A stretch of 64,000 nt of DNA from Spironucleus salmonicida (taxonomy: Eukaryota; Fornicata; Diplomonadida; Hexamitidae), in the NCBI GenBank assembly GCA_000497125.2, contig CM035322.1:1434001-1498000 (forward strand). Reading direction: 5' to 3'. Each line of letters begins with the position of its first letter. Within the stretch, counting starts at the first letter, position 1. This document shows positions 2,787 to 49,123 of the stretch, piece after piece. Made by a program: the position numbers and the translations under genes. The notes under the pieces were generated by a model. It did not search any database and was not told the DNA's origin. It saw only the letters and a program-made list of their open reading frames with translations.

Positions 2787-2812
2787 AGGATATGTTAGAA
2801 AGTAAAAATAAA

Positions 2813-3247: not shown

Positions 3248-3832
3248 ATGATGAAAATTGAAGATGAGATCGATATCGACGAACCCACCATCAACATGGT
3301 TGTGTCGCCGTTGCAAAAATCCTCGCACTTTCTCTCCAAATCCATTGTCACCGAGAACACAAAGTATACTGACTACTTCTAAACGTCCACCAACGACTTG
3401 CACAATATCCTAATTTCGGAAGAGACAAACACCTGCATGAACACTGTCAGCACCAATACCCGCTGGCTTAAAATTGTTCAATAGACTGCTACATTCCTGA
3501 CGATTTTCTTGTAAATTTCGGCGAATTTCACTCGATTTTTTACGAAGTAAAAATACGCCGAGTTCGTCCAGAATGCGGTTGCACTTCTGACGCTGGTTAC
3601 GATTTTGGTGATCTAAAGCCAGATCTTAAATGTCAACCAAAAGCTTTCCGGTTACGTTAAACAAGCGACCTACGACGTTGGCGTGGTATCGTTCTTAGCG
3701 CTACATGTAGTCCTGTTTGGTTATGGTTTTAGTAGCAAAATTGAGGTGATTGCCAGTGGATTTTGCCTGGCAAGCTTTTTGCCTCTGGGGGTTGCGGTGG
3801 CAGCCGGTGTAGTGATCATGAAGCGCGAGTGA
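3248..3832 (+). CDS. Small membrane protein, unrecognised
   Basis: 194 residues beginning MMKIEDEIDIDEPT. The first 80 residues are soluble (SKSIVTENTKYTDYF). Hydrophobic segments follow: about 82-96 (TATFLTIFLQISANF), 110-124 (AVALLTLVTILVIQS), 142-160 (VGVVSFLALHVVLFGYGF) and 168-188 (GFCLASFLPLGVAVAAGVVIM). The last ends with a short KRE tail. This looks like a four-pass or hairpin membrane protein. The sequence is clearly richer in G+C than the neighbouring gene at 3902, and it uses ACC, GTG and CTG codons freely. The stop lies in AGTGAT. No family recognised. Confidence 0.65.
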
Positions 3833-3901
3833 TTTAGACTAAATTTAGCTTTGTAATTAATATATTATAATACTAGTATTATAATAAAATTGGAAATTTT
3901 A

Positions 3902-4516
3902 ATGCGAGCACTAGACGAGGATTCCTCTGACATTGTGCTGCCATATAATAGTGGAAACTAGCCTGACAGCTTTAATGAATAATTGAAAGAAAATAGAAGC
4001 CTAACATAAGATTTTACCTAGCCTACAGTAAATTATACTTAGTATAAATCTGAATACCCCAGTATGCCAAAATAAAGCTAGTTTAATGTATCAAAATTTA
4101 TAGATGATGAGTAGCTAGGGAATCCGTACCCTAGATTGACAGGGATATTTCTACTTGTATTTAGAATTATAGTTTTAGTTTCCTTTGTTTTTTAAATAAT
4201 TGGTTATTTTATGTAATTCTTTTTTCATAAAGTTTATTCAGAGATCGTATTTATAATAATTTAGCTTTTTATACTCAGTTTTATTTTAATTGGATAGTTC
4301 TAAGTCAACATAGTAAAATAAATCATATTTTAAAAAGTCAAATTTTTGACAACGGAACTCGGAATAATTATTTACTTTATAATAAACATGATGTTATATA
4401 ACTACAATTTTTTATCTATTGTTCCAGTTGTTGCGTCTTTGTTAATGATTGTTAGTATAATATCAACAATATCGTTATTAGTATTATTTTTACTCGTTAT
4501 TATTTTAAGAAAGTGA
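3902..4516 (+). CDS. Small four-TM membrane protein, unrecognised
   Basis: 204 residues. The N-terminal 75 residues are soluble and acidic (MRALDEDSSDIVLPYNSGNQ). Four hydrophobic stretches follow, near 77-95 (TGIFLLVFRIIVLVSFVF), 108-130, 148-165 and 172-200 (PVVASLLMIVSIISTISLL), with a final LRK. The layout, a cytosolic acidic tail plus four helices, recalls small ER/Golgi and ciliary membrane proteins, but I cannot name a family. It is unusually A+T-rich beside the G+C-richer gene just upstream, 69 bp away on the same strand. The stop is an AGTGAT context. Confidence 0.65.
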
Positions 4517-4570
4517 TTTAGGTATTATCAATATTATATATTAAATTGCTAGAATTTAGAAAAATAATAA

Positions 4571-7500
4571 ATGTTTCTAAATGAATATGTTAAATATTCA
4601 AGATAGTCATAAATAAGCCCAGAAAGCCCATAAGGACTCTTTATTTTTATTACAGAATTATTCAGTTTTTAATTACCAACGTAAGTTGTCCCATCTTAGA
4701 CAACACCTTTAACTATATACCTTAAATTTTTCAACAAATTGCATACCTCAAATATCTTGTTTTCATAAAAATATGAATTTACAATAAGGCCTGCAAAAAT
4801 TGTACTTAAACTTCCCATTATGACGGTATTATCATAAAATGATGAGTTGTATATGCAGGTTCATTTGTTATGTGGATAATCTTAATCCATAATTTCAACT
4901 TTTAATTTTCCTATGAAATAAACCAACGATATATCATCTATTTTAACAGGATAATTAGAGGAGTAGGAATTTCATTCAAAAAATGCAAAACTACGGGGTG
5001 TAATTGCATCGCACTAACTATTGTCATATCCGCCAAACTTTATATTTAATTGCAATGAACCGCCTAATTTTTTAATTTAACAAGGTTGGTATAAATTTAA
5101 TATGTCTGATTCCGAACATTGGATTAATGCAACTATGATCAATAAACCAAGAAACAAGCCATTTTATAAAGTAAAGCTACAAGATTATGCAGTTGTATTC
5201 AGCAATTTTAACAGAAGAATTGGATTAGAGTCTCTCCACAATGATATTAAAGATGCAGTAATAGATAGCCTGGTTCAAGCTGTAGAACTAGCGAACGATG
5301 TGAACATTGACAGACAAAGTATTTCGTTCAATATAGACAGATATATACTACAAGTTACTTCCCACACTGGCCTAATGCCATTAACAAAAAAATAATTTTA
5401 GGTCACAAACAAGCCCCATCAAACAAATTTTGACGCAAATGCATACGATTTATTTAGCTCAAAATCGGATGTTTTCACATTTTCTAGTTCATCTAGCCTT
5501 GTTTTTGAATTCGTAGTCTAGCTCTCTATTTTCATAGGTGGTGCATCCTCACAATAAATTATAGAGCCGTTTTAAGATGCTTTAACTTATACAATTTGCT
5601 GGGGAACTTGGAGTCATGACAGTGGATAAAAAGTTAATTTAAACTAGTAAAAACCATTTTCTGAGAATGCTTTGCTCAAAATAGAGGATTTGGATGCATA
5701 AATCCATATTATTATAGAGTCAGAGCCATAATAAAAAGCTGATACGAGCAATCTTATTAATATAGAGTTAGTTCCTCCAGAAATCTATTTCTAGGATAAG
5801 GAAAAGGAGCAAATTTTCAATAATATGATTGAGTTTGATTCGCAAGAATTCAATGAGATCAAGTTTATTGAAAATGCACATGTTTAAATTACTGAAACAA
5901 CTCAAATCTAGCACCTTTAGGCATAAAAACAATATCCAGTTTCAGCAAAACTAAGAGTTTACTCATTCCAGCCGTTGATTTAAAACTATTTTAGGGATAC
6001 AGTAAAAATACGTTTTTTCGCTCGGTCAAGCTAAAATGAGATTCTATAATAAGATTCGAGCTATACAGATATCACATTTTCCAATCAAATAACAATTGAT
6101 TTATTTTCTAATTTCAAAGGTGTAATGACTTCTTTATATGTTTAGTTAATAGATAGAATTGACGGAATTGATTACGTTATTGGATAGTAAAAAATTCCTA
6201 TATCGAATACACAAATTCTTGAAAAATGTAAAGCCGATGCATTTATTTAAGATAGAAATAATTAATTTTCTTAACATGTTTTGGATGAAAATTTCTTTGA
6301 CTTATTGATTTTAGAAGCCGTAGGAGATAGTTATTTTGATTAAGAACCACCTGAAATTGCCGTTCTATAGATTTAAATATAGCTAATCAATAGTTAATAT
6401 GCAAATTATGATAATTTAGAGGACAAGGGAAATATAATGACTTAATAAGAACTTTTCCAAGCAGCTGTCCTAAAAAAACTAGGTGATTATGAAAAATATT
6501 TGGTTTATTAATAAACAATTAAAAATGCATTTTTTACTCCTTAAAGAATGCTCGCTATTAGCAAAATTGGATAAAATTCTATATATCGTCACTATGTAAT
6601 TTAAAATAATTAAGAACTACTTTTGGACATTTTATATGATTTGAAATTAAACCACAAAAATGTATACAAGCTTTCACTAATATCTCCGGATCCATTATAG
6701 GTTTCAGCGGTGAATTTCACTATTTCATTCGAAAAATTAAATTAATTCGAGAATATAGGAAATATTGAGGATTTAAAACTTAAATTTTCATTATCTTCAC
6801 CTAAAAAAGTTTTATTCTCACGTATAAAATTTGTATTTTCTCTGCATTTTAATGATCAAAATTTAGGCCATATTCACGTTGTATTTGATGTAGTAAAACC
6901 TTTAAAAAGTTTCTCCTAAATATCATTTTTAATTGCTTTCCCTTATAAAAATTAATAAACAAAAACAATTATTATACGTCGCTTAGGACCAGATTTTATA
7001 CTAATTTCACCGAATTGTAATGGAATCTTTCTGCCTAATTTAGAAGAAATAAACAGTAAAAAATCAATTTAAAATTATCATATTTATAACTAGAATAATT
7101 TATTGGATATAAACATTAATGTTATGATAAAAGAACAATTTGAATTTATTTTAGTTGAGTTCACTCCTGAAATTTTAAACTAGTTTTAGAAAACTACAAC
7201 AAAATTAGTATTAAAAAGTTAAGACTTTAGTGTTGATTTGAATATATCTTTAATGAATTATTGTGATGTATAATGCGAAACCGGAGATATGTTGTAAATT
7301 CCAAAATTTTCAGAAAAGAAATTGTTCTCTTATCCTCCACATGATTCTGGATCTATTAGAATTTTATCAATTTAAAAGCAATATGTGCGTAGTATTGATC
7401 CAAAATATCTAGTTGATATTATACCCTAGGAATCAACCAAAATTATAAAAAAGTATTTCTTGAAATCTAAAGGAAATGATTTAAAATACTTAATTTATAG

Positions 7501-7702
7501 TGATCATATGGGGGATATTTAAAGTTATTCAGAATTTCCAAGCTTAGTAAGAACCAGAAAATGTCGTATTTCAGACGAAGGGTGGATGATACCTATTCAG
7601 ATAAATATGGCATGTTCAAATCATCGATAGTCATTGCGAATATATGTTGTTTCTTAATCTATGTTTATGGGATATTTTTTATTGGAGATTTAGTGGGAGT
7701 GA
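4571..7702 (+). CDS. Large protein of unknown function (1043 residues)
   Basis: One continuous frame of 1044 codons, starting MFLNEYVKYS and ending YFLLEIQWE. There is no membrane segment or signal peptide. The sequence alternates short beta-like stretches (YFLPL, KFVFSLHFND, ILVEFTPEIL) with long Gln/Asn/Ser linkers. The N-terminal half has FYKVKLQDYAVVFSNFNRR, and the centre has a run of acidic residues near VGDSYFDQEPPEIAV. C2-like or Ig-like beta domains in a ciliary scaffold such as nephrocystin-4 are a possible reading, but I could not match any signature. The stop lies in AGTGAA and is only one base from the stop of the convergent kinase gene. Confidence 0.75.
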
Positions 7703-7703
7703 A

Positions 7704-8855
7704 TCATTTAAAATACTAAATTAGTTTTTGAATAATTCTATCCTTTTAATTAACAGGATTTTCAAAATATATGATTATTTATTCTATCATATAATCGAAA
7801 AATTTAAAAATTTTTTATGGAACTTCAGCATAAATATCTTTTACCAAAACTACAAATTTAATACTTTTTGTTTTTAGGATACGAATAAGTGATAAGACAA
7901 ATTTATAATCCGAAAACTAGTCTACTATAATAACGTAATTTCTAATATCAGTAGTTATATATTAAACACTTCTAAAATCAAAAATTTTATCTCCAATTAG
8001 CTTTTCAAGCATACAACTTCCTAAAATTCCTACAATTATGTTTGCATAATTATTAATATCAATTCGACTATATTAATAATATTATGCAAGAATTTCTTCC
8101 GGATTAAGTCTAGCACTAGATTTTTACTATATCATGGACCTTATTAAATTGCTATAGAACTGTGGTATAATATGAACAAAATCTTTATTTCCTGTTTACT
8201 TGAATTACATTAAAGCAATTTCTCTTTAATTAGCAAATGGAGCTTCCCCAAATATTAAAAAATAGAGCACACAACCAGCTGCCCAAATATCTACTGAAAA
8301 TGTGTGTTCACCTTCTTACTATTCAGGTGACTAATATTCTCGTGTACCAGACATCTACTAAAGTAATGATTAACTAGAATATTCAGAACAACCAAAGTCT
8401 GCTAGTTTCAATTATAGTCTTTAGTTTTCATAGTTAAAAAGTACATTTGCAGGTTTAATATCTTTATGACAAATTCTAAGCTTGTGTAGATTTGCAAGCG
8501 CATTCATAAGTTAAATCATAATTTCATCGATGAGTGCATAAGTGAAGAGATAATTTTTAGAGTCTTAAAACTATTATAGGATAGTTTCTACGGTTCCAAA
8601 GTTACAGTATTCCATAATTATACAAAAGTAATTATCATACTAAAAATGATTTATTACCTTAACTGCACCATCAAATTAAACATTTTTCTGAAGATTGACT
8701 TCTAAAATAGCATCATTTAAAAAATCCGGAATATGCTCAAATATTTTGATCATTTTCAATGCATAATATTAATTTTCATATAATACTAGGTAAACAGTAC
8801 CAACTGCACCTTACCCTAGCTACTTAATAATTTAATAATTTTACAATGATGTCAT
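7704..8855 (-). CDS. Serine/threonine protein kinase
   Basis: 383 residues with a complete catalytic domain at residues 8-270. The glycine loop is GQGAVGTVY (14-22), the ATP lysine is in YALK (K34), the catalytic loop is HKDIKPAN (130-137, HKD where most kinases have HRD), DFG is at 153-155 and the APE motif appears as SPE (176-178). WAAGCVLYFLIFGEAPF is the usual helix F/G region. The DIKPAN and ADFGCS motifs suit the NEK/STE side of the kinome; NEK-type kinases are heavily expanded in diplomonads. After the domain come about 110 residues rich in Ile and Lys with no recognised domain. The downstream ATG was chosen because it gives the intact glycine loop. Confidence 0.85.
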
Positions 8856-8905: not shown

Positions 8906-9115
8906 TCATTTTTTCTTTCCATTAATGATTTCACGGGCAGGAAAACGATGTTCTTCTCCAGTTACGAAGTTATAAGTTCCATCTATTTTCTAAAAGTAGT
9001 AATTACAAGCTCCAAAACTAATTAAGGGGGGTTATTAACTGAGTTATAACACGAAGAATTTAGGTGATCAAAAATTTGCATTTTCTTCTGAGGAAGGAAT
9101 ATAACTTGTCAGCAT
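8906..9115 (-). CDS. Possible very short gene with disrupted reading frame
   Basis: Reading leftward, the last 38 codons are protein-like: ISFGACNYYFQKIDG, then YNFVTGEEHRFPAREIIN, ending GKKK and TGA at 8906. Upstream in the same frame an in-frame TGA follows MLTSYIPSSEENANF. A second frame, from the ATG at 9081, reads MQIFDHLNSSCYNSVNNPP and would join the downstream part if the G run at 9026-9031 (C run on this strand) had one more base. The span 8906-9081 is exactly one base short of a whole number of codons. This could be a sequencing or assembly indel, a programmed shift, or a decayed gene. The short TGEEHRFPA style recalls axonemal inner proteins. Confidence 0.35.
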
Positions 9116-9209
9116 AACGGGAGTGTCTTTAAAATTTAATTTAGTCTAAATAATACATTAGAATTTAGTTAAAATAGTTTCAAAAAATTTAATCTATTAG
9201 GTTTGTGAA

Positions 9210-12200
9210 ATGCAATATGAGATTCCTTTATTTTAGTAAGATAACTCGAAACTTACAAGTGTAGATAATTATTATGATATAACTCAATATACTGAAATAT
9301 AACTTGACACTCTTGATGCCAAATAATATTAACCTATAAATCTTAGTGAAGGATGTACTTATTATGAAAATATTGCGTTTAGATTGTCAAATACTTATAG
9401 TAATGTGTTTAACTCAATAGAAATATAAGAAATTTTTAATGGTGCGGTAAATTTATATTTATAATAATCAAGATATGACTGGTATGTGCTAGAAGGTTTT
9501 GAAGAATTATTTACTGTTAGTGTTAAAATAGTATAAGATATAAATTAATACTTATACAAGTGTAAGTTTTACTATGGAGATTTCGATGTTAAAATTATTA
9601 GACCAGAATAAAAAGCGGATATCAGTTAGTTTATTCGATTTCGATAAGAGTATATTCCTTGTTTATAGTTAATGTAAATATTATTCTAATATTATACATT
9701 CTTAATGAATAATGCGTTAAATAATATTTATTATGAGGATTACAATGATTTTTAGTTTATGATAATGCAAAAAGTATTGCTTCTTGATGATTAGCTAAAA
9801 ATTGATGAATATACACGTTTAATTAATAGCTGTAATCTATTAAATATTACTGCATCTTAATAATTTTTACTTTTTAAATAGGTTTATCCTGGATTATGCA
9901 AAATGCTTTATGTAGACCTATTAAGGTAATTTTTTGATATTACTATTACTAAAGCCCATAGAATGTTTACTGTTTAATTTTAAAAATTTATTGCTGAAGA
10001 GAATATATTCATGTTATAAAATCTGGAAGGATTATTAACGCCTCCGTAAATTAATTATATAAGTAATGAGCTTGAAATTTTAATTCCATTTAATAAAGGA
10101 ATATCTTCTAAAGAAGACTTTAATAAATAAATATCATAAACTTCTTCTTCTGTTTAAGAAGATGTACGTAAGAAAAATTTATCTTTATTAACATTTTTAC
10201 GTTAATTGCATTTTATGGAATTTCAGGAAGATCATTATGATAAATTTCCAATTCATATTAATATTTAATTTATTTAGAAAGTTATTGATAACAAAGATTA
10301 TTTAATAACTGAGCCTTCTTTAGATTATGCAGTAGAATAACTAACAATATTTTTAAACAATATTTTGTATATGGTGCAAGATTTTTCATTTTAAGATTTT
10401 TATTCTTATGCTTAAAAGTAGGACATTGATTATTTATAAAGAATAAAGGAAGAAATTAATATTCTTTTTAATAATTTACCTTCTGAATAGCAATCTAATT
10501 TTTCTTATATTACAGATTAAATCTAGTTGATAACATATGAAATAGATATACCAGATTTTAAACTACTAACATATAAAATTCAATCAATATTAAGTATGTC
10601 AGTAGATATCATCATAGATAATTTTTCTTTGGATGACGAGTTAAATCAAATTGATTTATTTTATAAAGATGGATTTTTAAAATAAATTTAAGAACTTACA
10701 ACTAATTTATCTGCTAATACAAAAAGCATTAATTAGTTAATTTCTACAGGTAAAATTTAAGATGTGAATTTAACTGATGTGTATTTTGTTGAATTATACA
10801 ACCAAGTCATTTAAAATAAATAATTTTTACCAGATATAAATTTTACTGATCTATTGGATGTTTTGGAATTTAAGATTAGTGTCAAAAAAGCCTTTACATA
10901 TTTATTCTAGGACAACTTATTTTATTATTGTTTTAATATTGATACTGGATAATTGGATAGTTTCTTTAGTAAATTTGAGAAATAGTGCTACTCAATTGCA
11001 TAATCAAAAATGCTTTAAATAATGCTAGATTTTTCGTAGTCAATAATTGATAATATGCGTATATTCTTATAGCTTTTTATGTACTTTGAAACTAAGCCAT
11101 TACATTTCCATAAAATATTCGATATTCAAAATATTTTCACTAAACACTAATTCAAAGTATTTTATCATCGAATTTTTGATTGGTTCTTTAATTTTTTATA
11201 AAAAGTTGTATCTACATTTGGATCAGAAATACCTTCGTTATAGTAAATTGAAAAAACTTATCTTTTTATGAAGGAACTAAATGATATAGAAGCTTCTTAT
11301 GGGAATAAGATATAAGATGAAGATTATCCAGATAACTTTTAATACTATAAGTTAGCAGAAGTAGGTTAAATCTTAAATAAAAAAGTATAATAATATTTTT
11401 CTTTACTAAATGAAATAGAAATGGATGAAATTGATAAAGTATTCTTAGTAATTGTTGCAACGCATAAAATTGGTTGCGTTGTTCTTACAAAACTTAATGT
11501 AATCCATTTGAGATCATAAGCATATTTACACTATTTACAAAGTATTAATCTTTCAATTATTAGTTTATCATCGAAAGTTACAATTTTAGTATAAAATATT
11601 TTATTTACCGGAGAACTCGATAAAGTAGACATATATATAGACCTTGGAATTGAATTTGAGTAATTAGACTATGATGTCGAAAATAAGTTTGAAATTGATT
11701 TTTTCACAGAGATTTAAAAACATTCAAAATTAGTACTTCACACAGATAATTTTAACTAATCATAGGAGAAAAATATACTTGATGATCATTTGATGAAACA
11801 TTTATTAAATGATAAGAATAAAAAAGATGAAATGGTATTTTTAATTTATTTAAGAAAAATTATCTTTATTATAAAAGAAATATTATAGCTATCATTTATA
11901 AAAGATTAATGGTATAGTTGTTTTTCAATTATTTAGAAGAATGATTTTAGTAATGATTAATCTTTCTTAGGAACAATAAAATACTATTATGAAAATCTGA
12001 CATTAGTTTATACAACAATGATATTCGCGTATCTTAATAATGCATTATTACTAAAGTAAAAAGATGTACCTATACGATTTATGAAAATTGATTGTCTTAG
12101 ATCTATATCAATGAAATTTTTGCTTTCTATTCAAAACTTGAGATTAAATTGGAGTTAGTTTTAAAATTTTTTATTTAGTTAGTCGATTAATTTTACAGAG

Positions 12201-15200
12201 TCATATATTAAAATGATTGAAAATATTGCTGGATCTTAGTTAAATAATATTAAATATATTTAAATGTTTTAATCTATTTTTGATAAAAATATAAAACCCA
12301 CTTAAATTAAAAACTTAACAACGTAGTTTGGTATTAGTGCTGCATAAAGTTTAGCACTATCTGGACAAGATATTATCGGATCATATATATAGTATTAAAA
12401 TAAATTATTTGATTATTGTCTTCATGTTAATAAGTAATTAGTGCATACAAAATCAGTATTTGGTTTGTTATCATAAATTTATGTTGGCTTATAATAATTT
12501 GAGGTAGATTTTAAATAAAATGGTGATATTTGTATTATATAATTCTTAAGTTATAATTAGATTAGTTTTCTTTAAAAAAATAAGCTAGTAGTTCAACATG
12601 TGATAATGTAGTAACATTTGATTAGTGTCAATTTAGTATAGTTTGCTAGAGATATAGAGTCAATAATTTATATTATGCTTGATATTTTTTATGGTATTAA
12701 TATATTATAATTGTTAACAACTGATTTAGATTTAATTAGAACAAGAGGTAACATATTATAATTCAATATTTCACATATAGAAGATGATATCCATTAATAA
12801 GCCATAAATTAGCTTAAAAAACGATAAACACCTACGTTAAAAAAATTTACGACTGATATTAATAATCAGGATGAGATGACAATCAAATAGTCGGTGCAAT
12901 AAGTAAAAAAGATATTACACGATAGAAAAGAATACAAAGAAAATGAGAAGATTGAGTCTATAAATTTACTAGGTAGTCAAGAAGCTAATACAATTCTTGA
13001 TGCCTGTAAATTTTTGAATTAACTTGCTAAAAAAATTATTAAACAGAAAGCATAATTATTTTCATTAGTCATATATTTTAAAAATGTTAAGGTGGAACAA
13101 TAAAAAGTTTCTTTGAAGGAATTATATAAATTGGTTGTAGAGTTGTACCATGTTAGAGATCGTTTGCTCAAGATACCGTATAAGCACATTTTTGAAAAAA
13201 TATAAAAATAGATGTTATAAAATAATTAAACTGGTTAGGTGGTATAATAATAATACGAAATATTTGACTTAGAAGATTCATATATTTCTAAAAAATAACC
13301 TCTAGAACATTATTATAATAAAATTAAAAAATTCTAAACACACTAAATGTATCTTAAATAACTAGAATTTAATAATTTCGAATAGAATGCATATATTATC
13401 CCACACTAATTAGGTTAGTATTTTGTCTATGCGTTATCATATTCTATTACTCCGTTTATATTAAACTAACATTTTGAGGCTTCATTAATATATTTACTTG
13501 AAAATTAGGCCGTTAATTTATAGATATTTGGAAATCTTACGGGTTTTATTATAACAGATTCACCCATTAGAGGGAGAGTTATTTTGTCATTATAATCTAA
13601 TGATGAAATATTTAGACTAAAAAACCCTATAGTGGTCCCATAAAATTTATATTAGTATGAATACTTGTTAAATTAGTAATACTAATTATCTATAACTTAA
13701 TAAGTATAAGAAGCTAATGCTTAATTAGAAAATCAAAATTTTTAAGTTTTTTTGAATTAATATCCTTATATTATTTAATGGTATTCACTTATGTAATTTC
13801 CATCATTAGACTAACTTAAATCATTTTTATTACAAGAGAACTAAAAATTACCAAAAAATATAGCTATTGCATGTAGATTAAACGATATAATTAATTTCAA
13901 GATAAATTGGTTTGTAAAACCTGTGGGAGACGATAATTTTTTGATGCCTTACAATTTAAAATTGGGATCTTATTGGGGTGGCTCAGTGCAATAAATAGAA
14001 TAATTTTAATTGACAGAAATTTTAATTAGTGCTTTAAATACTATTTTTTAAAGTTTTTATGACAAAGTCCCTGTATTTTTATTTTCTAGATCTGAACCTC
14101 TACCATAATTTGTTAAAGACTATAATATAATCACTAAAACCCTATAAAGAGTACTATAAAGAAGGTTGCAACACATGTATTTAACAGATTAGAATTTTAA
14201 CAATCAGTATTCTGCAATTAAGCGTTATCTGGTAGCAGGAGATATTGTCATAATTATCAACTTTCAATTTTTATCACTAGAGTTTTAAAATCGTATTCAT
14301 GATCTTTTTATCAAATTCACATAATTATAGGGATATTTTGACGAGATATACAAACCGACTATAAATCCAATTACTATACGAAATGCAATTAAATCAGAAA
14401 TTAAAAAACTATTGCATAAATAGTTAGATATTGAAGAATAATAAAGTATTACCTAGGATGATATAGTATTGTAGTAACTTTCATATTTGGATGTAAAAGA
14501 CTAACTAGGCTTTCTTATATTTTCAGTTCCTTTAAATGATTATAACATTTAGCAAGATATTTCTAAGCAAAGTTATTTATTTTTTATAAATAAATTTAAA
14601 TCTGTAAGTTAATCATATACTTATAATGTTAATTAAAATCTTTAGGTAGAGTATGAAAAAATTAATGATGTCTTTGCAAATAAATTTTTAAATTTGTAAA
14701 ATATTTTAAAATATTTTAATACTAAAATCTAACTAATAACAGTCAAAGATTACAAAATGGTGACTAGTTTATTAGCAGAGTACAAAAATATTGGTTATGC
14801 TGTTTTATTTTTAGATATTGTTTTCAAGTCATATGTCTGTAGTAATACATAAAAAAGTTAAGGTAAAAATAAGGCATAGTAGATCTTAGGCTTTGATGAA
14901 TATTCGTTTAGAAGCTCAAAAGTAGTTATTCAGTAACTTAGACTTAAAGGAAAAATTAATGATTAATAAGGTTAGTATTAAGAATTTACCAATGACTTAA
15001 TGCTAATAGCTAATTTATTGATATAAATATTTAATCTTAACAAATAAGAAACTGGTATTATTAATCATATGACAGTTTTATTCTGTAACATTTTAATTAA
15101 GTCTTAAAATGATAATAAATCTAGAAGGCATAACTATTCAAAATACACGAATGATTTCATAAAACCGTATTTAAATAAGTAAGCAAATTAATTTATAAAA

Positions 15201-18200
15201 TACTGTTGTCAAAAATTTTAATTGACAATGGGGATTGGTTTAGAAGTTTTTTAATTGATGAATTTATTATAATTTAAGAAGCCCATATTATTATTGACTA
15301 ATAATTTGTATAATATTATTTACATGGCATAAATAATTTAAGATTTATCGAATATTAAAAATGATGTTAGTGTAATTACAGATGTATCAGATTTTAGTAT
15401 TTAACAATTATCTATTAAAAAAATTTATATTATTAATCCTACAAGCTATGAATAATTCGAATTATTTACATAATATTTAAATAGACATGAGGTTTCAAGC
15501 ATTATAAATAGAGTATTTATTATTTGCCCGGCTGTTAAAAAAGATACTTTATGGTAAACTTATTAATTTAGATATTCTTGTTTAGCAGAATTTAGTTAGA
15601 TTTTGCCAATTAATCTTTTTATTTTTTCTAATAAGAAAAAATTCGACATCTTTTAGCTTTAACGTTTTTATATTACTAATATATATGAAGGAATCGATGT
15701 GACACCTAAGAGTTTTTATCGATTAAAACACTTATAAAATTTATTTAAGGGTATTACAACAAATTTATTTAATTTATTTTTAAAGGAATTTAATTTAGGA
15801 AATAAATAAGAAGAGTTTATTCATTTGAGATCCATATTTGATTTCTTTTTGTTAAGGTTTAATATTATGGTAATTATAGAGGAAGATGTTAAATATACAG
15901 AAAGCACTAATAAAATGGAAAATTTTTTCACAAAAATTCAAAATGTTAAAATGAATTCTCAAGAATATAAAGATAGTGTTAATTCAAAAGAAAAAGAGTT
16001 TATTAGTTAGATTGAAACAGTAGATATAAAATATTAAGGATTAGATGCTGAGTATGTTTCATCAGTCAATAAGATTGATATTGAGAATGTACAGTTGTTG
16101 TAATAAATGTAAGGTAATTTTCAGTCGTATGGGATAGGAAATTTATCAGGTTGCTAAATCAAATTTAGCACTAATTTTTTAGAATAATTTATCTAATAAG
16201 AAACTGCTTATGATTCATTTAAATATTTATAAGAGGTAGTGTTCATTAGCCTATGGAATACTTTTAGTTTGTTTGGATAATTTTATATTAAAAATATAGT
16301 TATAGATAAAAAATGGAAATCGATCTACAAAACTTTAGAAGAATATGATCTAGAGAATTACAGGCCTGGAATTGAAAAATACTTCTTACAAAATTACATT
16401 AAGTTAATAGAATATGAAAATGTAGAGAAGTATATTATTTAATTAGAGCAATCTAAGTATTCCACGTTAGCACAAGTTGTTAAAATAGGATATCAGTCTT
16501 TATCTGCAGTAATGCCGAAGTAGTTTTATTATAGATAGTTTTGCTATATTAACTATTTTAATAAAGATGATATAGGTCAGTATAAATGGCTTAGTTATTG
16601 TTTAGGGAAAGGTATATTGAAAAATGTCAATTTGCATAAATTTATAAATATCTAAAAGCAAACTGGACAATCACTTAAAAAGAATACTAATTTTACAATT
16701 TTAAAATAGTAAACATTTGTTGATGGAATGTGGGATATTAATGGACTAGTTAATAATAGTACATAAATAGATGACAATAATATTAATACAGAAGAGTAAT
16801 TATTAGAATTTATGAAATTAGGAAACGTATCATTTAAAGATAAGTAATCAACTGAATAAATATTAGGATTTACAAATAAATAGGTACAGAATAAGTTTAA
16901 AAAAGAATTCAATACAAATTAAATTAACTTATAGCAAGATATTTAACCATTATTTGAAACATGGCAATTTATTTTTTTAGATGATGAACGAATAGCTCTT
17001 TCAACATTAATTGCATGCTGTTTTATGTCACCATCTACGTTTTGTTTAAAAGGCTAGAAGTATAGTGGAAAAACAACATTAATTAAAATTGCTAGTGTTA
17101 TCATTAAAGATTTAATTGATTTTAGTAATTCAATGACCATGAACTTAGATGACGATTCATAGTTTAATTCGCTGGCTTAGGGAATTATAGAAAAATTTGA
17201 ACTAGTTAGTATCTATAAACAGAGTATTATAGATATAAGTGATGATACAATAGACGATATAGGGTTAGATATAGCTAGATATAATTCAATCTAATTCTAT
17301 GAGATTGAATAATATTTACTAAAGAATATTAATGAACTATAATTATCTCATGCTGCTATAAATAAAATATATGAAATAATTACCAATTTTAATCAACTAT
17401 AACAAGTAGAAAAAGTAGATGTAATAGAAAATAAACTTGAAATAATATAATAACTTAGATTTTTAAAATTTACTAGAGGAATCAAATTTCCAGTTTTCGC
17501 ATTTGAATTCAACTAACAACAATTCTCAAGTATTTCCCATAGATTTATGTCGTTTATTAGGGACCATAGAATCATTCTTTCCTAGGTATGGAGTTTAGGG
17601 TTAGAATCTCAAATTGTTAGTGTTATGGGGTAAGTTTAACTTTCGGATTGTTCAGTTATTATAGAGTTAGATGAAAATTAGTCAATAGATTTAGATGTAG
17701 TTGAATTTATTATGCCAAACTTATCAATGTAGTATTTGCGTCGACTATTTAGATAATACGGATAAACTTATAACATTAACATGAATGATGATTGGATTCA
17801 ATCTTTCTACTATGGAATTAACCTAATTCAATCTTCACTTCCGAACGACATATTTAATAATTTTAAATTTATTGAAAGTTTTATGTTTTCTTAAGGTAAT
17901 TTACTGCCATCCTATATATCTTTGGTTAAAGACTCACGTAGATTTAATAAAACAATGGATATTGCGATTGAAGATTTAATTTAAGAAATGAAACCAGAAA
18001 TTTGGACTATTTTAATTTCAAATTATGAAAAATTTAATGATTAAATTGAAAAATCACAAGAGACAGATTTTAAGAAAACATTAATGTAATTTGTGGAAGT
18101 AATATCTTAGTAGTAATAACAAAATCCTACTTATTTATAAAAAATTATAGCTCTAAACTAAGATTTTTTATTTAAATCAATAAATATTTTCACACTATTC

Positions 18201-21200
18201 CATGTCTTAAGCGAGTAAAATATAGCAAATTCATGTTTTTCTTAATGTCTGGAGAGATTTACTTCTTTGAATTTATTAGGTTATCTTAATATTAGTTCTA
18301 ATACTGATTTAACTACTAAGAAATATAAATTAATTCATCCATGGTAAGAAACTTCATCATATACTTATTTATACTAAACATTTTAATCTGTTATTACATA
18401 ACTTTGCTTAACTTCAGGTAGAAGCGAGTAAACATAAGCTTTAACTAGCACAGCTTTTTAGAATAAGTTTGCAAGAAAGTTATTTTATTTTATGAAACCA
18501 CTTGTAGTTGATCATAAGATTTTTGTTCAAAAATTTCCATTTACAAAAGTTCTTTAAAAATTTATAAAGAAACTTCCAGCGTAAGAAACTATTGTTTATT
18601 AAATAGAATAGTTTTTACTTTAAAATAAGATGAAAAGCTTGTACGATGCTGGGCTCATATCTGCAGGTATTTATGAAACCAATAGTTTTTTTAATGCTCA
18701 TATCATCTAATTATATTCATAGGCTGCCACATAATATGAACCAATGCTACTAATTGTTGTTTACTAAATGCTAATGTATATTTTAAAGCTAAAATAAAGA
18801 AATGCTTCTATTGTTTAACTATAAATTTAACTTACAAATGGAGAACCATAAGATATATTCGATATACTTAACAGAGATTCGATTTATAATTTCAAATCCT
18901 ATTTTATATCTATAATTAATTAATTTTTGTCCTAAAAAATTTCCAAACCAAATGGATCATAACATTCTGTACATAAATAACATTCTCAGGATGATTTAAT
19001 TTCTGAAGATATAGCAGATGAAGAATTTATTGAATAATAGGTGGATTCATCTGAATCTAGTGAAAATGATTCAAATGATGAACTTGAAGATAATAATCAT
19101 TTCAACGGCTTTTAAAATCAGGCAGTATCGAGTATAAGATTTCCTATTATAGAAATAAAATTAAATACGAATTCAGGATCCAATTAGTATAATATGCTGA
19201 TATAATTACTCTCAACTGTTTCTTAATATAAAGTTATGCAAGCAGATTAGTTTAAGATAGCATTTTAATAAATGGGTAAAACAGATGAACAGTTATAAAA
19301 TGAGGATATGGACGATGATATATCTGCTTATTCAAAAGGTTCTAAAGCATCGTCTGCTTAATCTGGATCTGTTGCGCATTCCAATTACAGTAATTTCGAA
19401 TAAACAGCAAATTATGACAAACTTATGTATACCAGTTTATCTTAATAATAATTACTATTTGTTAATAATTTAAAGCATGATAGAAAACTAATATTAGATG
19501 TTTAAAATATTTTAAACATGTTGACTACTTACACTCATAATTCAAACAGATAGCATAAAAAGGCATAAAGTTAGCTTAATTCTGATTTAGTATAATATAT
19601 AAAAAATTTTGTTCAGGAACTATAAAATTTATTGATAATTGATGATGATGCTATAGAATATTTAGTTTTGCTTTAAATTTTCAGGTTTGCTATTCTAATG
19701 TCTCTAGGTATTAAACCATCTTTAGCATTTAATTAAGGTACATATAATAAAAATACAATGTTATTTAATTACAATATTTAATCGTTTTTCACAGGTATTT
19801 GTTTATAATCAGGTTTATAGTAATTTTAAAATACATCTAAATTAAAGGTAGGTATTATGTCAGCAGAATTTACATTAAATGGGTTCCCATCATTTCTAGG
19901 TTAGCGTTGTCAATAGTATAACTAGCTAAAAGAGGAAGAAGATATATTAATATCCGATGTTATATCTGGAAATTAATTTCCAGACAATAAAGAGCAGGTA
20001 AAAAATTATATATAAGATCCTTAAGATGTTATTTTAATTTTGCCGAAATCATTTTTGTAAAAAAAATCATATTCATAATTTTCACTACAATCCACATTAT
20101 TGTCATCCCTCTAAAATAGTTCATTCGTATAGTTTTTATTCGATTAATAGGAATTATAATCTATTCTCAAACTATTATCTATAGGGTTAGATTTGTATGT
20201 AGAGCTAGATAATAAATCTTTTTATGCGTTATTATCACTGACATTCTCTATTATTATAGTTGATGATTTACCATCCTAAAAAACAGATGAAATTGGGAAC
20301 TTTAAATTTAATTAATAAGGCATTAAATCTTTTGGCTAGATACCAAATATTTTAGAATAATCTGTTAAGTATTTAAATAGCTAAAATTATAATAAAACGT
20401 AGAATTTATAAAATATGTCTCATGTGTAATTTAATACAATTAACTATTAAGCTGGAGATTTACCACACCTTTTTAATGTCAGTGGATGTGTGCTGCCAGA
20501 AGACAGTCCAATTTTTGAATAATTTTAACATGGATATCCCTTTATTATTTAATAGTTTTGTCATATTACTATAAATTTATTTAATACATTAATTAACTTT
20601 TGCAAATAAAATACTTTAAACTTCGTGGAGTTCACATAGCTTGCTTCAAATATAGTTAATTTTTACACTAAATAAATATTTGAGTTCTTTTAAAATGCTA
20701 ATTATTTGTTTTTAATTTATCATTATTATGAAGCGTTATCATCTCCTTTATAAAACAAACCATAGTTAGTAGATTCATTATAAAGTTGTCAAGACTTGTA
20801 AAAATAAATCTCTGAAGAGCTTATTAAATATAAATCAGGAGTATAAGGTCAATATTTTGATTTTTATTTCCTTAAAAACGTGCAGAAAGTTTTAAAATAT
20901 GATAAAATCAAATATATGAATCAAAAATCAAAATAAACAGATTTTGATTCTTAGCTACTTATTTCAACTTTTGAATCATATATTATTAGAAATTTACTGT
21001 ATACTATTATTGAAAAGATAAAGCCTAAATATAATTATTACCAAACTATTGCATAATCTTCATATATTGATGGGATCATTTGTGCATGCTATTTAGTATT
21101 TTAATAATCAAATATTTTAAATGATTAAATGTTATTTAATTAATTAAGGCGAATGAAATTTAGCCATGTGTTTGGCTAATGTTAGCATATTATTTAAAAT

Positions 21201-24200
21201 ATTAACGTCACTGATAATATTAACGAAATAAATGGAAAATACGACTATTTATTAGTTTATCTAATTAGCTAATGTCAGGAATATGGATTTACAATTGATG
21301 TATAGTAAAATCTTTCTTAATAATCTTTATTCGGATAAATTACAAAATTCGAGAAAATTAACTATACTTAGAACAAACCGTTAATAGTTAATGGTGGATT
21401 TTCATTTTCACGATCCATTTAGCATCAAATTTATTAAATTGGAATGTTTAATTATCCGATTATAACCTTTATGTAACAATTACATATTCCAATTTAATAC
21501 AACGATCCTGTATACGAATAATTATATAACATCGCATTCATGAGCCAGAAATTGTTTAAAACAACATTTTTAGTTAATGAATCTCTGTTGCTTATTACTG
21601 CATGTGTATTAGAGGTTATTAAATTCTCAGATACCGCCAGGGAGGAATATTTACGTCTAATTTAAATGACGTTAGATGAATAAGATTTATTAGGGAAGAA
21701 ATCTATTGCACAAGATATTGCCAAGAAACTTCTTATAGTAGATTTATCTGCCCCATCTAAAGAATTCCAACAAGCATTAGCCAGAGCCATCTCAATTTCA
21801 GATTCTATAGTTTCTTTTACTAATTTTTCAGATAAAGCTTCGAATTCAAATCTGGTTATATTACGGAAATTCTTGTCTCTTAGGGGAAGAAAAGTTATAT
21901 AGAAGAGATAAACTATTTTAATTGGTCTATAAACTACTATTACAAACTAAGCATTACATAAATATAAAATTGTTATTGGATGTAATAAAGAAACCCTACA
22001 ATAAACGCTGCAGCGAGCAAATATGGATACCCAAGAGTTTTTAGATTTATTTTCAAGCTTGTACTAGGATGATAATGTTGATATTCAAAGCTAGTAAATC
22101 TTTATTACAACCTAAAATCTCATAAAAAGTGTTTTCTCAAATCAGGCAACAATTAGATATAAAGTAGAGAGACACTACCAGCTAAATACGCAAATCATGG
22201 AGACTATTAAAATATTTAAGGAAAAGGTCAAAAAATATTTTAGTCATTTCGTATTCGATGCTGTAAATCTAACAGTTTAAGAACAGGTTCCAATGAGTGT
22301 TCTCATGCAGAATTAAGTTGAGCCAGAGGAGGAGGAAAACGATGCTAATATCGATGATTTCGACTTCTCACAGCGCATAAATTCGCTTATTAAAGACGCT
22401 GACACGATTTTGAGCACATCAATTAAGTCATCGGCGTACGTCTCTGCGAACAGCTCCCAAATCCAAGACCTGCAGGACATTCTTTCGTACATTTAGGACA
22501 TTGACACCAGCGTGCACTTCCAGGATACCGTCCAGCTCAATCAGGACATCGACATTACACAGAAGATCGTTTTGAAGGATTTCGATTACCCAATTAACGC
22601 AAAAATCCAGGCAGCGCGCGTTATCCAGCAAATTGGTTAACCGTCCTGCTAGCAGTTCGCGCTTGCGATCCAGTTCATTATCTCGCTTTTCGAGAACTAT
22701 GCGAGTCAGAAACTGCAGTTTATGAGCTTCCTGGGCCAGGATTTCATCGCAAATATCTGCGGCCACATCACGTCCCAATGTGACCTGCTCGTCACGAATT
22801 CGCTGGCAGTGGTGGCGCAAAATCCTAGCTAAATCCAAGCGCAGCCGCAGCTGAAGGGGATGGTGCGGGCGACGCAGATCTACCCTATCGTGTACGCGCT
22901 GACAATCAAAAAGCAGCTGCTCATTGAGTTCTTCATTTTTGCAGTTCTGCCGCAGGTCCTGAAAATCACATCGGCGATGACGGAGCAGAAGTACCAATTC
23001 GCCCTCTTTTCGTACATCAATATGGTATTTTTCTCGTTTATGCAGTAGGAGCGCCAGATAACGTCATTTGACGAAATTCGCGAATTCGTGCAGCAGTACC
23101 TGTAGACTACGCAGCTTAATCAGTAGACGGAGCTGTAATTCTGCTTCGCACAGCAGATTCGACTCATGTTTTCTAACAACTCAAAATTTAAGTTACAGAG
23201 CTAGAAATAGTTGCAGCAGTTCAGGGACATTTTGCCGTCAGTGGTAACACTTTCCACCCGGTTAGAGCAATATTGGATCAAACTGGCTAGCCTGTCATAC
23301 AATAATATTATTTATAACATTTTGCCATGGTTTTTAAAATATCATTCCATTTTCGTCTAGTTAAGTCAGTGTCAAAACATATTTGCGGGTATAGTAGTTT
23401 ATTGGTAGAAGACTCAGTGTGTGACAATTTCATAAATGTTAGGTAAAATTTAGATGTAAAAGCCCAAAAAGCTTATCGAACAATAGACTAGTTAGACTTA
23501 ATTATTAGATGGCGAAGAGTAAGAAGAAAACAGCGAGGATATCGTTGAGGAAGAGGATCAGTAGGATGAACCAGCTTTGATTAAAGATAGAATTACGCTT
23601 ATTTTGGATAGATAGTAGAAATCAGATAGACAGATTTCAAACTTACCGTAAAAGTTACAAATACCAAATCCTGATACGATATTTGCAGCATTTTTGATTG
23701 GGAACTAGCTATAACCGCATCTTTTATAGGATAATCTTACCCTTTATACACATTTAATTTATGGTATTTTAGACTTGTAAAAGTCAATTAGTTTGGAGAT
23801 AGTAACTAATCACTCAAGCGCGTCAATTCACAATATTGCTACAGGTTTAATTAAAACTTGCTAACTGACTACATAGACAGAACGATAAAGAGTTTTAGTT
23901 AAGTTTTGGTATGATATTTAGGCTCATTTTGAGGTAATTATGAAAATTTTATCGCCAAATATAACATATAATGACATAAATCACCATTAGGTTATTATTT
24001 CAGATTAAATGTTTACAATTGCAGAGTTCTTTAATACTATTTCTATCGAATACCTCAAATATTTCTAGAAGATAAAGCTACTTATGGTTTAGGATGAGTA
24101 TGATTCTTCTAAACATTATTAATAATTAATTAAGATAGGATCCCCATAAAATACAGTTTTCATAATTTATTATGACAACGCAATTGATATAAATTCTTTA

Positions 24201-26045
24201 TTATCTTTTGTTTATGATAGCTCTGATTTGTAGGTATTTACGAGTATTCCACTAATATTTACTAATAAGCTTACACTATAACAATTAAGAGATATGATTT
24301 CGGTTATTAATATAGACCCAACTTATAACCTTTAAGAGCTTTAAAACATAATATCCTTTATTAAAAATAAACAAACAGTATATCCATATCATACACAGCT
24401 CCCTATAATTATAACAATTCCTACAAATACGCACAGATATTCAGCTTCAAAAAAGTATATACAATAGTTTAAACAATTAATAACATAGTTAATTTAGTTA
24501 AGTGATCCTTATATAGCATAAATACGATAGTCAGATACATTGGATAACTCGTTTAGACATATTTTGTCATTATTTATGTTAGAATTATTTGATATGTAAA
24601 CAAAGAATATAAAAATTGACACTAAATATTAGAATAATCAAATTCTAAGCTATATTTTAATAATTTCTATTATTAAATTATAATTTGATATTCCAGATGT
24701 AGAAATATGCAAAGTGTTTAGAGATCCACACTAAATGAAACACCTAAACTAAATTCATTCTGTGTCTGTGGTAAATTAATATGATAGAATCAAATAGAAA
24801 TTGGGAGATTCTAACTAATATTAATAATAAATATTAGAATATTTCTTGTAACCTTAAGTGTCTAGTAAATCAAAGTCAGTAAATATTTACGAAGACGATT
24901 TTGATATTTTTGATGATTTTGAATAAGATCTAGAGGAAGTTATAATTGTGGAATAACAAGAGGAAGAAATAAAAGATGAAGAAAATCTTAGTGACTGGGG
25001 AAATTTCTCAGATTATGAGATAGAGGAAGAGGAAGACATATAGGAATAAGAATTGATTGATGTAGGATAAAGCAAAGAATAAAATTTCTATTTAAATTTA
25101 ATAACATAAATAAATATGTTTGAAACATAAAATGAAGTCTAAAAAATAATTGATATTAACTCATTTGAACATTAAGTTAAGTAGATTCTCATTTAAGGAT
25201 AAAGAGTAATTTAAATAAATAATTAGAATCAGATTTAGTAAATTATTCTTTAAAGATAAACACAGTCAAATCAAAAAGTAGATAATTGTTTAAATATCTT
25301 TAAGTAGTTAGATAAATTTTTGCTCTAGAAACGAGCAAAATAAAATATTAGAATGTTCAACAACATAGAAAGTATTAGAAAGACTTCGTTTAATGAAGTT
25401 AAAAGTATAGAAAAGCAAATACCGAATCTTCTAAAGAGCTTTTTAAATTATATTACTCAACCGGCAATGGAATCCTTTTCTCTTTAAACACCACCAGAAA
25501 TTATGTTTTAAAAATTTATTTCATATTAACTAAATACTCCAATTGATGCTGTAATAGGTACATAAACTTTCGGAATTTTTGATGGCCAATGGATATTTAA
25601 TATTAATACTTTTAAATTCTGCTTTAATGAAATTCTATTATTTATTAAATTTAGGGATGCTTACATGCGCTAGATATATTTATGTGATATTTAGTTAATT
25701 TTTATCAGCAATAAATAACATGGATTCCCTAAAGTGGAAGATAATGAATTAATATTATCAGATACTCATGATGACGTTCGAAATACTGTATTCAGAGACT
25801 TTATTTTAATAAATGGATATATAGATCCAATCTTGAATATGATTACTCATGATTCACCTGAAGCTAAGAAAGGGTTTATTGATACTGCTGAACTTTACGT
25901 ATACTCAGTAGTTGCAAAAGAAGAGATTCTACGATGTTAGGGCTATGTTTAGGTTCCACTAAAAATAATTGATACAATTATATGCTAAGTTTTTGTTAAA
26001 TCTGAATCTGCATTAGATGGAATTCTAATATCGACTATGGAGTGA
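9210..26045 (+). CDS. Giant protein of unknown function (5611 residues)
   Basis: A single frame of 5612 codons without TGA; several points along it confirm the same phase. It starts MQYEIPLFQQDNSKLT and ends SALDGILISTME with a TGA in AGTGAA. One clear P-loop, GQKYSGKT (residues 2615-2622), follows FIFLDDERIALSTLIACC and precedes TLIKIASVIIKDL, so an NTPase module lies mid-protein. Acidic, probably disordered blocks occur near 3260-3300, 4765-4790 and 5224-5285. Long Leu/Ile/Gln-rich helical stretches dominate. Residues about 4370-4635 are encoded by visibly G+C-richer DNA. Size and a central P-loop recall dynein heavy chain, midasin or RNF213, but I see no repeated AAA set, MIDAS or RING. 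No family is assigned. Confidence 0.85.
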
Positions 26046-26073: not shown

Positions 26074-27432
26074 ATGTCTTAATTCTTTCCCGTCAATTAC
26101 TAAGCAAAATATGCATTAGATTATGAATAAAAATCAATTAAATCAAAAATTAAGACATAACATTATGAAAGAGAAGTATTCGAAGATAAAGATATAGTCA
26201 CAATTAATTAATATTTTGATATATTTTCAAAAATTTATAACAGGACATTTGATATCACAACTATAACTAAGTTAAAGGTTTATCTAACATAATTGTAAGA
26301 ATAATTGCGAATTTAATGCAACTTAGAGCAACCTATCACAATATATTAATTTTTAAAAAATAACTATACGGCTTCATTATAGTTTAGACTAAATGCTACA
26401 TTTGAATATTAATCTGTTTTTAATTAATTACAGAAATTTTTCGTCACTGAATCTCAACTTAAAGATATTAAAAAATGTTATAAATTAACTTTACATTATA
26501 GGGTAGATAGTCTAATATTAAATATGAGTTATCATCTCATGAAGTTTTTACAATAGTTTAGTGACTTAAATACAGATCTTATAGGGTTATCCAAAAAATT
26601 TTATTAAAGGAATGACATAAATTCAGACAACTCAGATTCATATGTAGTAATGAAAGATATGACACATTATCCTTAAAAACACATTGACGAAGGAAACATA
26701 GTATAATTGTTTAATGATATTTATAAGCCTAATGTCAAATGTTTGTCATCATCTGATATGCTTAAAGAAGTAAAACTTCTTCATGCTGAAATTTAGAAAT
26801 TAGGTAGTTTTGTTACAATTAAGTAATATATCATTTCAAAAACATAGGTTTCTTGTGACTGTTGTTTTAAAATTAAGAATTTAATAATAAATAAATCAAT
26901 TGAAAACCTTTAAAAGTATATTTTAAATGAATAGTTTCTATCAGATGATGTTAAAAATATAAGTATGACCTATTATAGATTATGTTGTGAATTTTTATAA
27001 ATATTTTGCATGTTTAGAACATATTTAGTTAAATTAAATAATCTATAATAAGATAAAGATTTAGAAAATACCTCTGTATTTGATTTACTGTAAAAAATAA
27101 CTCGCACTAAGTTAGAAGTTGATATCATAGATAATTATAATATAAATCTATAACCAGAATATTGTAATGATATTACAAAAGAGCAATCGACGTAACAAAA
27201 TATTTTATAAGATATCATACCAGATCCAGAATATTATACTCAATAATAATAAATATAATTAAATGAATGCTGTTGCTAAACTGAAGACATTTTAATTGAA
27301 TCTAGACATAATTAAGAGTTTAATTTAGAATTAAGAGTAAATAAATTATAACATGATGTTAACATCATTAAATAATAGCAAACTTCCATATTAGACATAT
27401 TGTAATTAGTTTTGGAATAAATAAAAAAGTGA
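26074..27432 (+). CDS. Unknown coiled-coil protein, paralog of the gene at 32941-34440
   Basis: 452 residues. The body is helical and ends in a predicted coiled coil (LELRVNKLQHDVNIIKQQ...LVLEQIKK). The middle shares blocks with the minus-strand gene at 32941-34440: VDSLILNMSYHLMKFLQQF against NDSLILNLVHHLCQFLSQF, and FNDIYKPNVKCLSSSDMLK against FNQIYQPQNNCLSSADVFK. Both then carry a Cys pair (CDCCFKIKNLII against CTCNFEISGLII). Gene order inside the protein is the same, so this is a duplicated family. No known domain recognised. It begins 28 bp after the giant gene and precedes CYB5D1 by 41 bp on the same strand. Confidence 0.75.
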
Positions 27433-27473
27433 ATTTTATACATTATATTAATATATTTTTTCTTTCCGCATAA

Positions 27474-28160
27474 ATGCATACCCATACATTTTTTACTCCA
27501 AAAGAGATAAAGGAACATTGCACTCCTTCTGATTGCTGGGTTTCAAAGTTTGGTAAAGTATATGATTATACCAATCTTATTAAAAGGTCCCCAGCAAAAT
27601 TAGTTGAAGCATTATCGCGCTCGGCTGGAGAAGATGTTTCATCTTGGTTTGATCCAACAACTGGAGATTTTTACAAAATTTCTAATCCATTAGACGAAAA
27701 TGATCGTTATCGCTTACCCTTAGGATTACCAACACTTCATACAGCTGATGTATATTCTCCTATTTAATAAGAGATTGACCATCAGCCGATCACAACAGTA
27801 GATGCAGCATCACCCACTGTAGAAAATCCATGGTGGAGAGATCAATCATATTGCATTGGAAATTTAACAAAAAATGCCAGAGAAATTGATATACTGAACA
27901 GTCTTACTAGCTAAAAACATAGATTAGAAGTTGCAGATGAACTTACCATTGCTGAAATTGCTGGAAGATATAACAGATTTAACTCAAATTGTTTGACTGG
28001 ATATTAGTGGCGATTTGACGGTTAGCCATTGAAAATGGATGATACCTTAACAAATAATAAAATCATGGATGAAAGACCAATATTTTTAAAATTAGGATGG
28101 CCTTAGGATTAGTGGCATATTCCATGCATAATTTTAGTTTGGAAGGACGAATGTATGTGA
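27474..28160 (+). CDS. CYB5D1: Cytochrome b5 domain-containing protein 1 (CYB5D1), ciliary
   Basis: 228 residues, about the length of the vertebrate protein as I recall it. The N-terminal b5-like domain reads FFTPKEIKEHCTPSDCWVS and FGKVYDYTNLI, then AGEDVSSWFDPTTGDF. The second half is the family-specific region: NPWWRDQSYCIGNL, ILNSLTSQKHRLEV, YQWRFDGQPLKMDDTL and WHIPCIILVW, matching the vertebrate order PWW..SYY.VG, TLTSQEHTLEV and Y.W.Y.GK.L.MD.TL. CYB5D1 is tied to the axoneme and radial spoke/central pair function in other organisms. The usual b5 HPGG motif is absent and SSWF replaces the His-containing motif, so heme binding is doubtful. Flagella are implied for this organism. Confidence 0.88.
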
Positions 28161-49060: not shown

Positions 49061-49123
49061 GAAGTTTGTTGGGGTCGTAACGGATAGTAAAGGATAGAAC
49101 TAATAAATCGATAATTAAAAATT

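Follow-up and report, generated by a model that had tools for sequence, protein, structure and literature searches.

The window analysed here, a stretch of 64,000 nucleotides from the fish-parasitic diplomonad Spironucleus salmonicida (assembly GCA_000497125.2, contig CM035322.1, positions 1,434,001 to 1,498,000 of the forward strand), contains one giant gene, whose product, P0001, on balance reads as a very divergent derivative of a dynein heavy chain—probably non-motile and with one nucleotide site. Two observations carry this reading. A segment of the P0001 family matches the C-terminal part of the dynein linker in profile–profile comparison, and a conserved P-loop finds its best dynein counterpart at the third AAA module (AAA3). 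Confidence is only moderate because several profile matches lie off the dynein order and a test of colinearity gave no enrichment. A preliminary description of this DNA had judged the protein to be not obviously a dynein, which is probably wrong in view of these two matches, although they do not prove a dynein derivation.

P0001 is encoded on the plus strand by a single open reading frame (ORF; 8925–26045) of 5,706 codons followed by a TGA stop, as read with NCBI table 6, in which TAA and TAG specify glutamine. These two codons make up 473 of the 617 glutamine codons of the ORF, and frames of at least 150 residues in the window number one under table 11 as opposed to 135 listed under table 6. 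The stop is the only in-frame TGA, whereas the remaining five frames across these positions contain 69, 225, 136, 75, and 72. That the ORF represents more than one gene, or a read-through pseudogene, instead of one protein is extremely improbable: the single TGA-free frame argues against it, as do the homologues, each predicted as one protein of comparable length and alignable with P0001 for the greater part of it. The preliminary description had likewise reported one uninterrupted frame and several acidic blocks, both of which are present, but had placed the start at the second in-frame ATG (9210; 5,611 residues). The first ATG, at 8925, is the more likely start because in a MAFFT alignment with the homologues P0002 and P0003 the residues of P0001 upstream of residue 96 are paired (VTKLQVPSIFQKQQLQ with TVKINVPDSLKQ and TVKITVPKAFSQLQ). 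Residues are numbered from this start.

P0001 belongs to a family of giant proteins. In a word-based search of about 5.8 billion proteins (E up to 0.01), it finds two relatives besides itself: P0002, which is S. salmonicida SS50377_21974 (6,092 residues; 28% identity and 90% coverage versus P0001), and P0003 from Hexamita inflata (4,783 residues; 28% identity and 78% coverage). The paralogue L028 as query returns P0004 (SS50377_25543; 5,563 residues), to which it is identical at 100%, and P0005 from H. inflata (5,565 residues). In the searched S. salmonicida genome (14.47 Mb in 37 contigs), five paralogous places are found in addition to P0001 (Table 1), giving six detected giant relatives. 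These six loci and P0003 are interlinked at 19–39% identity in pairwise BLAST. The proteins returned by the two protein searches bear hypothetical or uncharacterised source names, with one labelled 'Transmembrane domain-conta...'. The earlier proposal of a lineage-restricted giant holds insofar as the protein search finds relatives in two diplomonads only, S. salmonicida and H. inflata; the same search missed the paralogues L029 and L030, so the restriction is unproven. A third protein search (A5) returned no member at all, known ones included, and carries no weight on distribution. No published description of the family was found in the open-licence literature on dynein in Spironucleus, dynein evolution, dyneins without microtubule-binding parts, diplomonad genomes, stalkless dynein, DNHD1, or the locus names SS50377_21974 and SS50377_25543, and the word 'dynein' is absent from the main texts of PMC11787283, PMC3916229, and PMC9509377.

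Two members deserve a remark. The local alignments of P0003 end near its residue 4740, while P0001 and P0002 continue for ~1,100–1,200 residues; the P0003 gene, or its model, may be truncated. Beside L026 (C2 near 1512000), an open frame of 24,545 codons was rejected as an artefact of a run of N, L026 itself containing 1,498 N. An 87.9 kb gap on chromosome 2 is reported in PMC9509377, and this N run would fit that gap if C2 is chromosome 2.

For comparison, the dyneins encoded by the S. salmonicida genome itself were collected with the Pfam models DHC_N2, AAA_6, AAA_8, MT, AAA_9, Dynein_heavy, and Dynein_C; the places found number at least 16 for DHC_N2, 15 for MT, 13 for AAA_9, 12 for AAA_8, and 11 for Dynein_C. 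Their alignments cover the surroundings of AAA1 (10 of 20 loci, one near-duplicate and partial matches being dropped), the stalk (15), and the C terminus (11). A first hhalign comparison with larger pieces of the family was not significant. A scan of 66 family windows against 39 dynein windows, with the same 2,574 pairs computed for the reversed family as control, places residues 1532–1626 against the C-terminal part of the dynein linker as the top pair (score 43.3, E 1e-5, hhalign probability 82%). The control maximum is 22.3. Column shuffles of the linker window reach maxima of 13.9–21.9 (25 shuffles against 20 of the 39 dynein windows), and 29 frames from eight non-dynein AAA loci reach at most 19.6. 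Leaving out any single one of the five family members or ten dyneins gives scores of 30.9–46.3 with an unchanged register, and a profile restricted to the canonical dyneins scores 30.1. When the segment is aligned separately with the longer dynein alignment, E is 1.5e-4 (hhalign probability 51%). P0003 alone finds the linker at the same place (31.2), as do P0001–P0003 together (24.3). The paired sides read QIFGNLTGFII..GRVILSLQSNDEIFRLKNPIVVP in the family and KCFDGIKKLDM..SPVIASGLFGLCGEYVPFIKSVNC in dynein. The linker is recognised by profile–profile match, whereas the Pfam DHC_N2 model itself gives no match.

The second observation concerns the P-loop. The preliminary description had pointed to one clear P-loop, GQKYSGKT, at 2615, which is confirmed and becomes residues 2710–2717 in the numbering used here (95 more). 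An exact [AG]xxxxGK[ST] occupies one and the same alignment position in P0001, P0002, P0003, P0004, L029, and L030—six of the seven members covering it. P0005 carries a version one residue longer (APDNHIGKS), and L026 does not reach the position. By chance, 0.04–0.11 such motifs are expected per family protein (about 0.06 in P0001). A second formal occurrence in P0001, AFQQMGKT at 3446, is not matched exactly in any other member. Ahead of the P-loop, the seven members show a D..R motif (LDDER, LDPYR, LDAHR, FDPHR, IDKHR); downstream follow an invariant E in an LSDxSxIIE-like sequence and an invariant RDH. In the hhalign scan, the P-loop window scores best with the AAA3 P-loop of dynein (27.0) and next with AAA2 (23.1), and the assignment to AAA3 agrees with the distance from the linker segment. 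An initial assignment to AAA1 was dropped once the linker match placed AAA1 near residue 1700. A Walker B motif for the AAA3-assigned site was not identified with confidence in the family sequences.

With linker and AAA3 as fixed points, a by-eye reading gives the order linker–AAA1–AAA2–AAA3–AAA4–stub–AAA5–Dynein_C-like end (Table 1). For the AAA1-like stretch, P0004 VSENSFANNIIRISTFIITGNIVVVVGIELLPSNQVQELL can be paired with dynein CSDGLDFKSLGRLLSGLCQSGAWSCFDEFNRLLPDVLSVV; none of the five covering members (P0001–P0005) has a Walker A in this stretch, itself assigned by eye. The putative AAA4-like module, read from residue 3575, shows DAIEYL and pairs LFDQQEL with dynein LFEADEM. The candidate Dynein_C-like end reads GLELVGACYD ... 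VPLNVGG ... EWVDRGVFLGV in P0004. Its hhalign match lies at the expected place (E 0.065), above the reversed and all 12 of 12 shuffled controls, and two off-order pairs do the same; Pfam Dynein_C gives no match up to E 10. A ring of six AAA modules would follow from the by-eye reading only, predicted models having a predicted local distance difference test (pLDDT) score of about 35. The absence of repeated AAA cassettes, as described before, thus holds for intact P-loops, while degenerate AAA-like modules may be present.

Table 1. Positions of P0001 and its features in the window, and of related loci elsewhere in the S. salmonicida genome.
Feature	Position	Strand	Basis
Single ORF P0001	8925..26045	+	table 6 frame; homologues of 4,783-6,092 residues in S. 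salmonicida and H. inflata
Segment matching C-terminal part of dynein linker, residues 1532-1626	13518..13802	+	hhalign 43.3, stable on leave-one-out
AAA1-like module, residues 1684-1800	13974..14324	+	by eye; hhalign of module alone E 0.41, nothing found
AAA2-like module, residues 2095-2165	15207..15419	+	by eye; no Walker A in five covering members
Walker A GQKYSGKT, assigned to AAA3	17052..17075	+	exact in 6 of 7 covering members; best dynein match AAA3 P-loop
Acidic low-complexity insert, about residues 3335-3395	18927..19109	+	sequence
AAA4-like module without Walker A, residues 3575-3895, with LLSSLQNSSFVQFLFDQQEL (dynein L016: LEDINNILNSGLISNLFEADEM)	19647..20609	+	by eye
Short stub at position of stalk/microtubule-binding tip, residues 3898-4045	20616..21059	+	motif interval; hhalign E 0.11
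AAA5-like module in best conserved part of family, residues 4045-4390	21057..22094	+	by eye
Dynein_C-like C-terminal segment, residues 5540-5706	25542..26042	+	by eye; hhalign E 0.065
Paralogue P0002 (L025)	C2:1373876		genome search; L025 = P0002 at 100% over 3,333 residues
Paralogue L026	C2:1506266		genome search
Paralogue P0004 (L028)	C5:1606555		genome search
Paralogue L029	C7:987141		genome search
Paralogue L030	C7:1553553		genome search
Four divergent dyneins	C5:441275-449572, C5:1366849-1374597, C5:1324317-1331303, C3:469681-476088		Pfam profile searches

Between AAA4 and AAA5, the family appears to be short. From the motif at the start of CC1 to that at the start of AAA5, seven of eight members (P0005 being left out) measure 147, 152, 148, 118, 148, 125, and 113 residues, as opposed to 338, 333, 347, 347, 347, and 330 in the dyneins of the same genome; the latter are the six of 15 loci with both motifs unambiguous, two of them near-duplicates, and the motif equivalence is partly by eye. 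Compared with the stalk region of dynein, the profile of residues 3540–4640 has its top hit where CC1 begins, the place at which it would be expected (E 0.11). No family member matches Pfam MT (PF12777) at the default cut-off, so a stalk with microtubule-binding domain is not recognised. Provided that these motifs are indeed equivalent, the family would lack about 200 residues, among them the microtubule-binding tip. A true but divergent dynein motor that generates force via AAA3, with its microtubule contact replaced or very short, would account for the kept linker and AAA3 site; it is nonetheless very improbable, given the AAA1-like stretch without Walker A in five members and a stalk interval of only 113–152 residues.

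Several results weigh against a dynein derivation. Best matches over the whole protein fall at the expected place for 8 of 43 dynein bins versus 7 of 42 with the reversed family, hence without enrichment, even though the expected places were drawn partly from the same hits. Part of the AAA5-like module has its best profile match in dynein AAA1, and neither AAA5 against AAA5 nor family AAA6 against the dynein C-terminal part exceeds shuffles. The two off-order pairs that beat all controls join the AAA3-region and the AAA5-region family profiles each with dynein AAA1 onwards. Among the top 45 pairs of the scan, those off order but above the control maximum are residues 4023–4103 with AAA1 (29.9), 5380–5518 with the part before the stalk (25.4), 2847–2868 with AAA1 (25.1), 1336–1427 with the C-terminal part (24.3), and the P-loop with AAA2 (23.1); part of them could be AAA modules matching one another. 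The linker is not found by P0001, P0002, P0004, or P0005 alone, nor by P0004 and P0005 together, and three divergent dyneins alone give 17.6. Pfam dynein models are not listed for any family stretch tested (E up to 10; paralogue stretches up to 1), and genome searches with the seven models have no family locus among the best candidates listed. PDB sequences, searched with four single queries and three profiles, yield no credible chain, and AlphaFold models of residues 3480–4640 and 2650–3130 have a mean pLDDT of 35.5 and 35.0, too low for use.

These results would suit a giant NTPase family special to diplomonads and unrelated to dynein, in which one P-loop domain sits in a long helical scaffold and the linker match is chance or convergence. 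The missing overall colinearity, the off-order matches, the homologues in S. salmonicida and H. inflata only, and the lack of a sequence-family match naming P0001 (Pfam, NCBIfam, PDB sequences) all speak for it. It is nevertheless considered rather unlikely, as the linker score is about twice the highest of the 2,574 reversed scores and survives leave-one-out, the P-loop prefers AAA3, and the by-eye motif order suits dynein.

Searches against known families leave P0001 without a name, as had been described. Pfam, run on two overlapping halves at E up to 10, gives one chance-level match and no MIDAS/VWA, RING, or AAA model; NCBIfam gives a single chance-level match that names no family. The stretches L028, L029, and L030 have five Pfam matches listed (E 0.005–0.15), all under their cut-offs. 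Three of these are P-loop/AAA-type models, all in L030, and two sit on its P-loop (AAA_14, E 0.13; nSTAND6, E 0.15). The members of alignment A11 contribute one further sub-threshold match of this type (E 0.017). Hidden Markov models of the family against single dyneins, and the reverse, do not reach significance over whole sequences; for single domains, the best values are about 0.005.

Two other giant AAA families, midasin and RNF213, were considered as well. Midasin (Mdn1/Rea1) is a giant with acidic regions, a series of intact AAA P-loops, and a MIDAS at its C terminus; RNF213 is a giant with a dynein-like AAA core and a RING E3 domain. P0001 resembles midasin in size and acidic regions and RNF213 in size, and the P-loop and the weak P-loop NTPase matches in L030 would agree with a divergent member of either family. 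Such an origin is quite improbable. No MIDAS/VWA or RING Pfam model is found in P0001 or the paralogue stretches, in line with the preliminary description; a single conserved P-loop stands against the several intact ones of midasin; and the one clear profile match is to the linker, which neither family is known to have.

Compared with the dyneins of the same genome, the putative derivative P0001 shares the linker segment (by profile), the P-loop at AAA3, the by-eye module order, and the very large size. It differs by having no Pfam match, by apparent loss of the AAA1, AAA2, and AAA4 P-loops, by a stalk interval about 200 residues shorter, and by acidic inserts. Its length exceeds that of a typical dynein by about 1,000 residues. 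The nearest named analogue is human DNHD1 (dynein heavy chain domain-containing protein 1), a flagellar dynein-heavy-chain relative that is divergent and possibly not a motor. A review (PMC11506864) lists DNHD1 among the genes for sperm flagellar malformation with central pair loss.

Some dyneins of the genome are unusual themselves. Four divergent ones have linker and MT-domain matches with no Dynein_C match listed; they are possible intermediates towards the giant family. A gene at C4:216072-223538 (L060, L009, L035) matches the AAA_6 (AAA1) end only; the match closely follows an ATG, although the frame stays open upstream of that codon, and no neighbouring DHC_N2 match is listed. At C6:192237-192944 and C6:1326491-1327201 (L051, L052), a linker and the first 230–232 AAA_6 positions are followed, only a few codons on, by TGA. 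The C4 and C6 genes may thus be the pieces of a split, otherwise ordinary dynein heavy chain. As an RNA-seq search reported in PMC5224939 found no trans-splicing in S. salmonicida, the two parts may be separate polypeptides.

As a derivative of dynein, P0001 would begin with a tail (about 1,450 residues), followed by a linker that leads into a ring of AAA-like modules. In this ring, Walker A would be kept at the AAA3 site only, the AAA1 site and, following the by-eye order, also those of AAA2 and AAA4 having been lost. Of the stalk and the microtubule-binding tip that it carries, a stub would be left. In known dyneins, the AAA1 Walker A is essential for movement, and the AAA3 site gates the ring. 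Since AAA1 Walker A and stalk appear to be absent, P0001 would not walk on microtubules; it would be a large scaffold of ring and tail whose shape depends on nucleotide bound at AAA3. By analogy, this ring protein most likely has a structural or regulatory role in the flagella or the cytoskeleton of these eight-flagellated diplomonad cells. For the hexamitid giants as a whole, of which six are detected in S. salmonicida, it is close to an even call that they are non-motor 'pseudo-dyneins' without AAA1 engine and stalk and with AAA3 as sole nucleotide site. If so, the regulatory site of dynein outlives its motor site, and the family shows, as an experiment of nature, what a dynein can do without: a ring would be in use without motor site or track-binding tip, and the role of AAA3 could be tested independently of AAA1. 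Some very large diplomonad proteins that lack annotation could then be named, and unusual machinery in the flagella or cytoskeleton would be indicated.

In base composition, the P0001 ORF contains a GC island at window 22200–23400, where 300-base windows rise from ~0.25 to 0.52 and then fall again. One 150-base window reaches 0.57 and third-position GC up to 0.675, and the glutamine codons within the island move from TAA/TAG to CAG. The paralogue L029 has a larger island at about 3500–8500 (500-base windows 0.25, 0.60, then 0.28), and L025 and L028 have none. These islands could be due to local biased gene conversion or recombination. The neighbours of P0001 in the window include a protein kinase (7704–8855, minus strand), a CAF1B/HIR1-like WD40 propeller (954–2786, plus strand), and a cytochrome b5-like protein (27429–28160, plus strand). 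A tRNA-Arg (tct) at 49123–49198 on the minus strand is the sole tRNA found in the window, where Rfam at gathering threshold matches nothing else.

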